Origin: Candidatus Zhuqueibacterota bacterium
GTDB taxonomy: Bacteria; Zhuqueibacterota; Zhuqueibacteria; Oceanimicrobiales; Oceanimicrobiaceae
Direction of reading: 5' to 3'
Assembly: GCA_029262055.1 (NCBI GenBank)
Contig: JAJDAD010000066.1
Location: 1 to 60,440 of the forward strand
DNA: 60,440 nt
The position numbers and the translations under genes were made by a program. Shown in pieces: positions 17,407 through 60,440 of this stretch. The stretch's first letter is position 1; the number at the start of each line of letters is the position of its first letter. The notes under the pieces were generated by a model. That model saw only the letters and a program-made list of their open reading frames with translations, made no database searches and was not told the DNA's origin.

Positions 17407-17684
17407 CTAACTCACATATCTCACTTCACAAATAAACTTAATTGGCTAAGTTTACAGAAGTTAAGCAAACTCCATCTCCCGGGAGGGGACAGCTTCAAAC
17501 GCGTAGAGAGTTTGAAGCAGGGGTGGGTGCGTGACCAGCGGCAGGGCAGACGTACCCACCCCGGTTCAAAACGCTGAATGCGATTTGAACCTGCCCCTCC
17601 GCGCGCGTTGCGCGTTTGGAGGGGATTTAGATGCCAAAAACAGTTTCCTCAGAAGACGGAAACCAAGTGAGAAATGTCAGTTAT
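17407..17684. mobile_element. MITE-like structured repeat element, copy 1
   Basis: The left end 17407-17426 and right end 17665-17684 are terminal inverted repeats matching at about 17 of 20 positions (core AAGTGAGA.ATGT.AGTTA on the right). The 278 bases between them encode nothing but fold into several hairpins. These are TTCAAAC..GTTTGAA at about 17492-17518, a GGGGTGGGT/ACCCACCCC stem, GTTCAAA../..TTTGAAC, CCCCTCC..GGAGGGG around a GCGCG palindrome, and GTTTCC..GGAAAC near the end. A second copy lies at 43891-44110. Small size, inverted ends and multiple copies fit a miniature inverted-repeat transposable element. Confidence 0.8.
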
Positions 17685-46228: not shown

Positions 46229-46660
46229 TGGTACGCCCGGCATGGGCATGAACTAACGGGGTGTAAGTCCCTTATAGGCGAACTCCTGTATCTATTCTAA
46301 GTACAACGACTATTAGCGAAAGGTAACTGCAAAGCCGCGAGGCTTTGCGGGAAGGAAGCCTGCAGCAAAACAGTGAGCCAAAGCCGGCGTTGAGCCGGGC
46401 GTAAATGATGCGGTGGTGCTGCGTCAGTTCAAGTTCCCCAGTCAAGCCTTATCCGGGGAGGTTTGCTCAAGTGCGATGCAGACCGTTTGGTGAACATCCG
46501 TCGGACTCCCGGCAAACCAAGTCCAATCCGCGTAGTCTGCGATCAACTGAGCGGAGCTAAGAACAGGATAACAACCAAATGGTCTCGCATAGCGACTTCT
46601 GGAGCAATCCGGTCGTTGATTAGGCAGAAGTCAGCAATGGTATTGACTCCAGGAGGCGTT
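46229..46660 (+). mobile_element. Group II intron remnant (5' part)
   Basis: TACGCCCGGCATGGGCATGAACTA at 46232 onward and GGTGTAAGTCCC match the start of the intron at 59809-60440. The domain I block GGTAACTGCAAAGCCGCGAGG ... GAAGCCTGCAGCAAAACAGTGAGCC (46322-46380) follows, then GCGTAAATGATGCGGT and a diverged copy ending GGCAGAAGTCAGCA (46623-46636). Reverse transcriptase and domains V/VI are absent. It is a decayed, non-functional fragment. Confidence 0.75.
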
Positions 46661-55011: not shown

Positions 55012-55397
55012 AGCAGCCTCCTAAACGTTAGTATGTGATCTTATTGTTTCTCACGACTAAATATACGGGGAGTTGCTCGAAAGAAAAGAGCTAGCCGACG
55101 GACGGTTGAATTAGAAGGATGGGTGTTATTCTTAGCGGATGGGTAGTACGCGATTAAAACTCAAATGCTTACAAAGTCATCTATCCATATAAAGTGCTAG
55201 ATAGTTGTAAAGATGATTTCTTCGAGTTTGAGATCAGCAACTGGCATGAGATACGAACCGGATAGCAACCACAAACTCGGCACAGCGGCCGGGGAGGTAA
55301 CTTGCTGGCTCAAGTTGGGCAGAAAGTCTTCCGTGCCTTGCCGAAGGGTCAGCAGAGGCCATGGTAGCTGAACGCTCGGTTTAATTGCCGGGACATG

Positions 55398-55460
55398 CCC
55401 CGTTGGACAAAAAATAACAATTCAACGGAACAGGCTCTGTGGGAACCTATCCCACGGCGT
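55398..55460. repeat. 63-base palindromic mini-insertion in the intron remnant
   Basis: Against the intact copy (GACATGGTGAAGG near 60347), the remnant has 63 extra bases starting CCCCGTTGGA and ending TCCCACGGCGT. They are flanked by ATG at 55395-55397 and 55461-55463. The ends are roughly inverted, and the interior carries CTGTGGGAACCTATCCCACGG, a hairpin. Confidence 0.65.
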
Positions 55461-55488
55461 ATGGTGAGGGGCCGAACATCGTGGTCAA

Positions 55489-55515
55489 CCCCGTGGGATA
55501 ATTTATCCAACGGGG
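55489..55515. repeat. 27-base palindromic mini-insertion in the intron remnant
   Basis: The intact copy reads GCGGTCAAGGAGG. The remnant has CCCCGTGGGATAA...TTATCCAACGGGG inserted, a nearly perfect palindrome, flanked by duplicated TCAA at 55485-55488 and 55516-55519. It has the same CCCCGT/ACGGGG termini as the 63-base insertion. Confidence 0.75.
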
Positions 55516-55750
55516 TCAAGGAGGAGCACGGTCACGTTCGTCTTGCGACACTCATACCCGACCGGGCTCAGTCGTGAGCGGCGCGTACAACCGCCAGCCT
55601 TGGAAATGTGAAAGAACCTTTTTCGCATTAGAAGTAGATTCATCCTGCGATGAAACGCCAGTGTGGACCGCGCATGCCCGGTATTGTGGGAAGGGCGGGA
55701 GCGATACCCGCCCTTGCCCGATTATGCGGCCCCTCTGAACGCGAAAAAGG

Positions 55751-59808: not shown

Positions 59809-60440
59809 GTGTGCAAACGGATGTGTACGCCCGGCATGGGCATGAACTACTGGGGTGTAAGTCCCCTATATGTGAACTCCTGTATTTGTCTTCTAAAGTA
59901 CAGCAACTATTAGCGAAGGGCAACTGCAAAGCCGCGAGGCTTTGTGGGAAGGAAGCCTGTAGCAAATCAGTGAGCCGACGAACAGAAACATCATATAAGG
60001 CCGAGTCCGCGGGTAAGTTGGCACATGATAACAAAGCCCGAGGTTCAGCGGAGGAGCCTGCCCCGGCCTTGAGCCGGGGGTAAATGATGCGGTTGTGCTG
60101 CGAAAGTTCATGTCCTTATCCGGGGAGGTCTGTTTAATCATGCGATGTTCGAGTTAGTGGCAAGACCCGGGTGGGCCCCCGGGAGAGCAAGCCCAGGCAT
60201 GTCAGTGCGCTATCAACTGACATGAGATACGAACCGGATAGCAGCCACAAGCTCGGCATAGCGGCCGGCGAGGTAACTCGCTGGCTCAAGTTAGGCAGAA
60301 GTCAGCAGAGGCCATAGTAGCCGAACGCTCGGTTTAATTGCCGAGACATGGTGAAGGGCCGAACATTGCGGTCAAGGAGGAGCATTGTCACGCTCGTCTT
60401 GCGGCACTTATGCCCGACCGGGCTCAGTCGTGAGCGGCGC
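59809..60440 (+). mobile_element. Group II intron, 5' part, continuing past the window
   Basis: The intron begins near GTGTGC (59809) or GTGTACGCCC (59823) with CGGCATGGGCATGAAC, then GGTGTAAGTCCCC, the domain I block GGCAACTGCAAAGCCGCGAGG ... GAAGCCTGTAGCAAATCAGTGAGCC (59921-59974), GGGGGTAAATGATGCGGT, and continues through CATGAGATACGAACCGGATAGC to GTGAGCGGCGC at the window edge. Reverse transcriptase and domains V/VI would lie beyond the end. A small frame (ATG 59736) runs into the intron start and is probably the interrupted 5' exon or a by-product. The exact 5' splice site was not resolved. Confidence 0.75.

Follow-up and report, generated by a model that had tools for sequence, protein, structure and literature searches.

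Two inserts in a group II intron remnant

The window, meaning the whole stretch of DNA that was analysed (60,440 nucleotides), is the entire contig C77 of a Candidatus Zhuqueibacterota genome (5.74 Mb, 97% complete). It harbours a decayed copy of a group II intron, referred to here as the remnant, which is interrupted at two sites by short palindromic inserts (Table 1). The remnant is homologous to intron copies on contigs C94, C107, C13 and C2, and the better preserved copy at the window edge matched the Rfam families RF02001 and RF01998 (59928-60114 and 60262-60359). Several group II intron copies or fragments are thus present in one genome (window positions 46231-46636 and 59825-60440; contigs C94, C107, C2 and C13). 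When the remnant was used as the query in a plasmid search, no match was obtained.

Table 1. Positions of the intron copies, inserts and duplications in the window, and loci of the recurrent target R
Feature	Position	Strand	Remarks
Decayed group II intron copy (remnant), host of both inserts	55238..~55760	+	Blocks of 87, 50, 28 and 71 nt with 89-94% identity to 60214-60440
CATG, target duplication of insert 1, left copy	55394..55397	.	Empty site in the other copies: ACATGGTGA
Insert 1, 62 bp	55398..55459	.	Family ends CCCCGTTGGA and TATCCCACGG(C)G; missing from all other copies
Insert 1, first of two probable palindromes (decayed), 33 nt	55398..55430	.	Independent fold; inner junction fits tandem expectation
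CAGG, probable tandem-junction spacer	55431..55434	.	Would be the inner copy of the duplicated CATG, with one change
Insert 1, second of two probable palindromes (decayed), 25 nt	55435..55459	.	Independent fold
TATG, duplication of insert 1 (4 bp), right copy	55460..55463	.	One C-to-T change
TCAA, target duplication of insert 2, left copy	55485..55488	.	
Insert 2, 27-bp palindrome	55489..55515	.	CCCCGTGGGAT-AATTT-ATCCAACGGGG, one conserved mismatch; model R1, E 1.5e-6
TCAA, target duplication of insert 2, right copy	55516..55519	.	
Better preserved intron copy, window edge	59825..60440	+	Both sites empty; runs on into contig C13
Recurrent target R			Loci L065, L069, L086, L090, L091, L188, L213-L218, L262, L266, L295, L315

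Palindromic inserts in the remnant had been described in an initial annotation of this DNA, and they were found at the place it gave. Insert 2 is 27 bp long with TCAA on both flanks, as described there. Insert 1 is likewise a palindromic insert with a duplication, but the size given earlier (63 bp, with ATG duplicated) had to be revised to 62 bp followed by TATG, since the final T had been counted inside the insert. A third length difference between the remnant and the other copies had been overlooked; it comprises 23 bp (55325-55347) between GGCAGAA and GTCAGCAG, and is weakly palindromic without a clean duplication.

Both inserts are missing, by alignment, from the right-edge copy (continued on contig C13) and from the copies on C94 and C107 of the same genome. 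Among the collected loci, site 1 was empty in all six other copies found by pattern (L003, L004, L006, L064, L324 and L361). Site 2 was empty in all five further intron copies found in the same way (L003, L006, L064, L324 and L361). The pattern used for site 2 additionally matched L001, where the site is filled, as well as five unrelated loci that were excluded, and it missed C107, where site 2 is empty by alignment. The Rfam consensus D1D4-1 also aligns without a palindrome at site 1. According to the initial annotation, other intact copies should contain the palindromes if the right-edge copy carried deletions; all readable other copies proved to be empty.

Structure of the element and length classes

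The element consists of 11-bp inverted repeats, CCCCGT(T/G/A)GGAT, around mostly 3-10 bases. In the stem, 97.4% of the cells are paired. In an alignment of 38 sequences, three pairs were changed on both sides; a value as high was reached by one of 500 shuffles, with three cells being few. In genome G053, copies with the arms CCACGT..ACGTGG and a duplicated CTTG were observed, in which both arms had changed together. A subfamily with the sequence CCACGTTGGATAGCAAACATCCCACGTGG and CTTG duplicated was present at six loci of this genome (L349-L354, on contigs C45, C103, C110, C111, C233 and C284), all inside one longer repeat. A resemblance of the core GTTGGAT to integron attC sites was considered, with the orientation being inside out. 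Intrinsic terminators have a symmetric G+C-rich stem followed by a T run and lie beyond gene ends; as for stem and position, the palindrome has a conserved stem mismatch, and copies of it lie within a gene and within introns.

Arm pairs up to 4 kb apart, with one change allowed per arm, gave 157 elements of up to 35 bp, 3 of 36-57 bp, 17 of 58-63 bp, 11 of 64-120 bp and 6 longer ones; these class sizes are not frequencies, as the patterns favour short loops and the long elements derive mainly from three genomes that were searched with single arms. Ten of the 11 elements in the 64-120-bp class measure 96-107 bp, and none of the six longer ones has an exact flank match. Further elements of 59-61 bp were found in genomes G001, G002, G029 and G036. 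The internal parts of the longer elements are mostly unrelated between genomes, and their folds are mostly no better than those of shuffled sequences, the exceptions being insert 1 of the window and a tRNA-bearing element at locus L164. Judging from their shared ends and flanks, the 58-63-bp and 96-107-bp classes probably represent this family in a fuller, non-autonomous form.

The element at L164 (5143-5249, 107 bp) has the sister arms CCCCGTTAGAT..ATCTAACGGGG and encloses a tRNA-Val(CAC) gene. It apparently sits in the anticodon loop of another tRNA gene, the outer tRNA having been judged by eye. Other recurrent hairpins with similar flanks, GATTCAAAC..GTTTGAATC and GGTTCAAA..TTTGAACC, were observed in the genome of the window (window positions 17563, 43925 and 43991; L046 at 18015 and L047 at 564), and are perhaps another small palindromic family.

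Insert 1 as a probable tandem pair

Insert 1 folds into two separate hairpins and is probably best interpreted as a tandem of two palindromes, both decayed. When its middle is compared with the junction expected for two palindromes separated by a CATG copy, 19 of 26 positions agree, which is the best plus-strand score in the window, a score of 19 being also reached on the minus strand at another position within the same remnant. Five of the seven differences from the expected junction are C-to-T or G-to-A changes. The same array architecture was observed elsewhere (L141, L178 and L087/L228): the array in G053 (L087/L228) reads CAAG-element-CAAG-element-CAAG, and arrays spaced by TTCA are present at L141, on a Patescibacteria contig. 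In a rival parse, insert 1 would be a single element of the 58-63-bp class.

Distribution of the family

A genome search for further copies had been suggested. Pattern, BLAST and covariance searches of the genome of the window did not detect any family copy beyond this locus; one further 17-nt hit was a chance match. As the family is undetectable elsewhere in the genome, this locus most likely dates from an earlier period of activity, as a fossil, or would have arrived with DNA from a relative richer in the family.

A pattern search of 194 genomes gave matches in 11, of which seven have the family form as judged by reading the listed sequences (G000, G002, G003, G004, G007, G053 and G060). G000 is the genome of the window and belongs to the same family as G002-G004; G002, G003, G004 and G053 are members of candidate division KSB1. 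A pattern scan of species genomes yielded at least 117 stretches, many of them from Saprospiraceae, other Bacteroidota, Cloacimonadota, Stahlbacteria and KSB1, and a scan of viral contigs gave four loci, which were included in the later locus sets. At a threshold of E 0.01, a covariance model built from 38 copies matched 12 of the 63 genomes in the class, with the highest numbers in G053 (27), G007 (19) and G003 (10); G001, from the same genus as G007, gave 2. All 12 genomes that had been picked because they already held a copy were matched (54, 52, 41, 22, 14, 9, 8, 6, 2, 2, 2 and 1 matches), G194, G196 and G198 being among those with high numbers. In all these covariance counts one copy may be scored on both strands.

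Target-site duplications

Flanking duplications were analysed in 184 elements of 23-110 bp with at most one change per arm, 30-bp flanks and non-identical flanks. The 142 elements with arms that differ at position 7 (asymmetric) were assigned to the family; the other 42, which are symmetric and include terminator-like hairpins, formed the contrast set. An exact direct 4-bp repeat was present in 53 of the 142 asymmetric elements, compared with 3 of the 42 symmetric elements. Exact direct repeats of 3 bp and of 5 bp were each found in two asymmetric elements, and the remaining 85 had no exact direct repeat of 3-5 bp. Control 4-mers shifted outward by 1 to 8 bp gave 0, 1, 0, 0, 2, 1, 1 and 6 exact repeats, the last value probably arising from arrays. 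When the elements were collapsed to 124 distinct flank contexts, 46 had an exact 4-bp repeat, with 0.5 expected. The outer bases of the duplicated 4-mers were T..A in 33 cases, C..G in 19 and T..G in one, i.e. they were complementary (TNNA or CNNG) in 52 of the 53.

The 53 duplications are not all independent, since 16 of them share one recurrent target, R, with the sequence AACC(T/C)GGA-NNNN-CC(A/G)GAA, and lie at one place within it (Table 1), rows that were selected for identical 4-mers. The other 37 represent 36 distinct contexts, all 36 with complementary ends. The 4-mer duplicated in R is mostly CAAG, otherwise TAAA or CAAA (reverse strands counted). In other loci (L181, L180 and others) the R repeat has no palindrome at that place, which suggests that R is a preferred place with repeated independent insertion. 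A fuller form of R, CCTAACC(T/C)GGA-CAAG-CC(A/G)GAACC, is common to KSB1, Saprospiraceae and Cloacimonadota. When R and copies located within or next to another copy were set aside, the targets were surrounded by stems of about the same length as the controls, and no general preference for hairpin loops as targets was detected there.

An exact direct 4-bp repeat was missing in 89 of the 142 family members. Inverted flanking 4-mers (TTCA..TGAA, TTTA..TAAA and CTCG..CGAG) were present in 24 of the 142, and mixed flank forms, e.g. TTCA..TAAA, were common. In one Saprospiraceae genome (UBA2365) the right flank is constant across many copies, and there the palindrome therefore rides within a larger repeat. 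Comparison of two intron copies of G003 (L324 and L326) with uninterrupted sequence showed that TTCA and the element had been added before TGAA, i.e. as an inverted copy. Our conjecture is that such inverted copies could arise when a gap is repaired by snap-back copying of the hairpin.

Insertions at individual sites

On contig C303 of G053, a 29-bp palindrome flanked on each side by CGAG is located within an open frame of 257 codons that matches Pfam PF01261, a conserved gene. Of 62 genomes in the class, 17 gave a match at E 1e-40 (query genome included), and the insert is missing from all 14 aligned homologues, i.e. those that had been given loci. The gain amounts to 33 bp (29 plus 4), so that the reading frame stays open. 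A site at the 5' end of the intron, GGGCATGAA/CTA, is empty in three copies in the genome of the window; it is filled, with TGAA duplicated, in G003 (L088 and L133) and G004 (L064). At L130, one palindrome is nested in the loop of another, with a separate duplication for each.

Search for a mobilising gene

No autonomous element with the same ends was found among arm pairs of up to 4 kb in the collected loci or among single arms of three genomes, and no gene flanked by the arms was present in these scans, which yielded short elements only. Neighbouring genes were also compared, in clusters of 4,553 open frames from the 117 listed loci of the pattern scan and 16 stretches of the genome of the window, and no transposase-like neighbour family was recognised by eye among the clusters listed.

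Discussion

The proposal made from this sequence at the outset, of a very small mobile palindrome, is supported by the empty sites, by copies at unrelated sites with 4-bp duplications, by the in-frame gain of 33 bp and by the nested copy at L130. We consider it likely that the palindrome is a minimal non-autonomous element with terminal inverted repeats, moved in trans by a putative enzyme that makes a 4-bp staggered cut and thereby duplicates 4 bp, and that the window was hit at two sites. Duplications, empty sites and an in-frame insertion were observed directly, and from this point on the enzyme and the cut are what we infer. The element would have been reduced to little beyond its two ends. 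An enzyme supplied in trans would cut the target, TNNA or CNNG, with a stagger of 4 bp, the element would be joined at the cut, and gap repair would leave 4 bp duplicated. In the remnant, a strike at CATG would have given a tandem pair, since decayed to 62 bp, and a strike at TCAA would have given the 27-bp insert. Against this explanation, ordinary cut-and-paste acts on both ends simultaneously, for which a duplex of 27 bp is very short. Movement in trans of an inverted-repeat element is the most economical reading, with a hairpin intermediate as a serious rival in view of the shortness of the element and of a closing base pair that depends on the target.

In that rival, which we regard as rather unlikely, a folded single strand (a DNA or RNA hairpin) would insert across a 4-nt staggered break, with gap filling giving a direct duplication and snap-back copying an inverted one (TTCA..TGAA). 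It would account for the complementarity of the bases that touch the element in 52 of the 53 direct cases, with the inner two bases free, as if the outer pair joined the stem, but the symmetric target preference of a dimeric enzyme could also yield complementary ends. The inverted flank copies (24 of 142, together with L324 and L326 at an intron position of known empty sequence) and the pair-preserving changes in the arms (three pairs, one of 500 shuffles; CCACGT..ACGTGG in G053) also fit a hairpin, as does the small size of the elements, which would make synapsis of the two ends difficult. On the other side, continual correction by snap-back is hard to reconcile with the conserved mismatch at position 7, and no general preference for hairpin-loop targets was seen outside R and copies in or beside copies.

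A bolder proposal, tentative and in our judgement doubtful, is that the palindrome of 23-32 bp is itself the complete mobile unit, among the smallest with a fixed 4-bp duplication. It would integrate as a hairpin closed by a pair of target bases, hence the TNNA and CNNG targets; direct and inverted duplications would be two outcomes of repair, and 58-63 and 96-107 bp would be the sizes accepted by the machinery, one of them able to accommodate a tRNA gene (L164).

REP-type palindromes moved by a RAYT (a Y1 tyrosine transposase) resemble the family in size, palindromic form and mismatched stem, and Y1_Tnp genes were detected in 16 of the 19 genomes tested. A search for a RAYT-type transposase had also been suggested from the initial annotation. 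The Y1 transposase genes (RAYT, IS200 type) do not track copy number: copy-rich G053 (27 model matches) has no Y1_Tnp match, with the caveat that this genome is 78% complete, and G000, with 16 Y1_Tnp matches, holds only this locus. The GTAG head (or a CGTC tag) is missing, the conserved ends being CCCC and GGGG, and the accessible portions of PMC3733652 and PMC3116915 do not mention exact 4-bp duplications at REPs. Mobilisation by a RAYT is therefore very unlikely.

We consider it still less probable that there is no mobile family, and that the palindromes arose by local template switching or were selected as intron stems or transcription terminators. Intergenic hairpins are common, and the symmetric pattern hits (e.g. 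in Streptomyces) are terminator-like, with a direct 4-bp repeat in 3 of 42; one and the same asymmetric sequence, however, recurs across many phyla, where its sites are unrelated and carry 4-bp duplications, and it has also entered a coding gene and a copy of itself. Least probable of all is that the remnant is ancestral and that precise deletions removed the palindromes from the other intron copies. Nothing in favour of this reading was found: all other copies of both sites are empty in the same genome and in G003 and G004, the Rfam consensus agrees with them at site 1, and the inserts are flanked by duplications. Deletion in the other intron copies was rejected on the six empty copies of site 1.

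Bacterial MITEs are under 200 bp, with sizes of 105-168 bp given in the accessible text of PMC2229807. As described there, they are non-autonomous, have inverted terminal repeats and a target duplication, and are sometimes inserted in frame in genes. The family described here has the shared terminal inverted repeats (11-bp arms with a conserved mismatch at position 7) and a target-site duplication of fixed length (4 bp). It differs in its bare form of 23-32 bp, which is nearly all ends, in that no parent IS was found in our searches, and in that the TA terminal motif, as given in that text, is missing. Rickettsia palindromic elements are also palindromic and in frame inside protein genes, but those are 105-146 bp long, with the duplication listed as unknown in the same text (PMC2229807). 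REPs and REPINs are likewise palindromes of 20-40 bp, with doublets and intragenic copies, in the accessible portions of PMC3116915 and PMC3733652. Unlike them, as far as those portions describe them, the present family has clear 4-bp duplications, with neither a GTAG or CGTC tag nor a RAYT link. Small dispersed repeats of cyanobacteria were reportedly described by Elhai et al. 2008 as 21-27 nt long and mobile, in which they would resemble our family; the organisms differ.

By analogy, the mitochondrial palindromes may work most like this element. The GC42 clusters of yeast and the RHE hairpin elements of sponges are also tiny palindromes, of unsettled mechanism as presented in the accessible text of PMC4478555 and PMC2800124, and the yeast GC clusters have short flanking direct repeats (AG or ACT) and merge into compound forms (PMC4478555). 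On those descriptions they belong to other organisms and have other sequences, whereas the family here lies on bacterial chromosomes and has 4-bp duplications with complementary ends; with its bacterial contigs and 4-bp repeats, it is not a member of that group.

No published description of this palindrome family was found, within an incomplete coverage of the literature, and the papers containing the end sequences were, among the matches listed, apparently unrelated by title. How the smallest repeated palindromes spread in bacteria and mitochondria is an old question, as filled and empty sites have rarely been observed. In the present family, exact duplications are available at dozens of sites, the target rule is strict, one insertion lies in frame in a coding gene, and copies occur nested and in tandem. 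As genomes with many copies and genomes with none occur within one bacterial family, their comparison offers a way to search for the enzyme, which could then be assayed.
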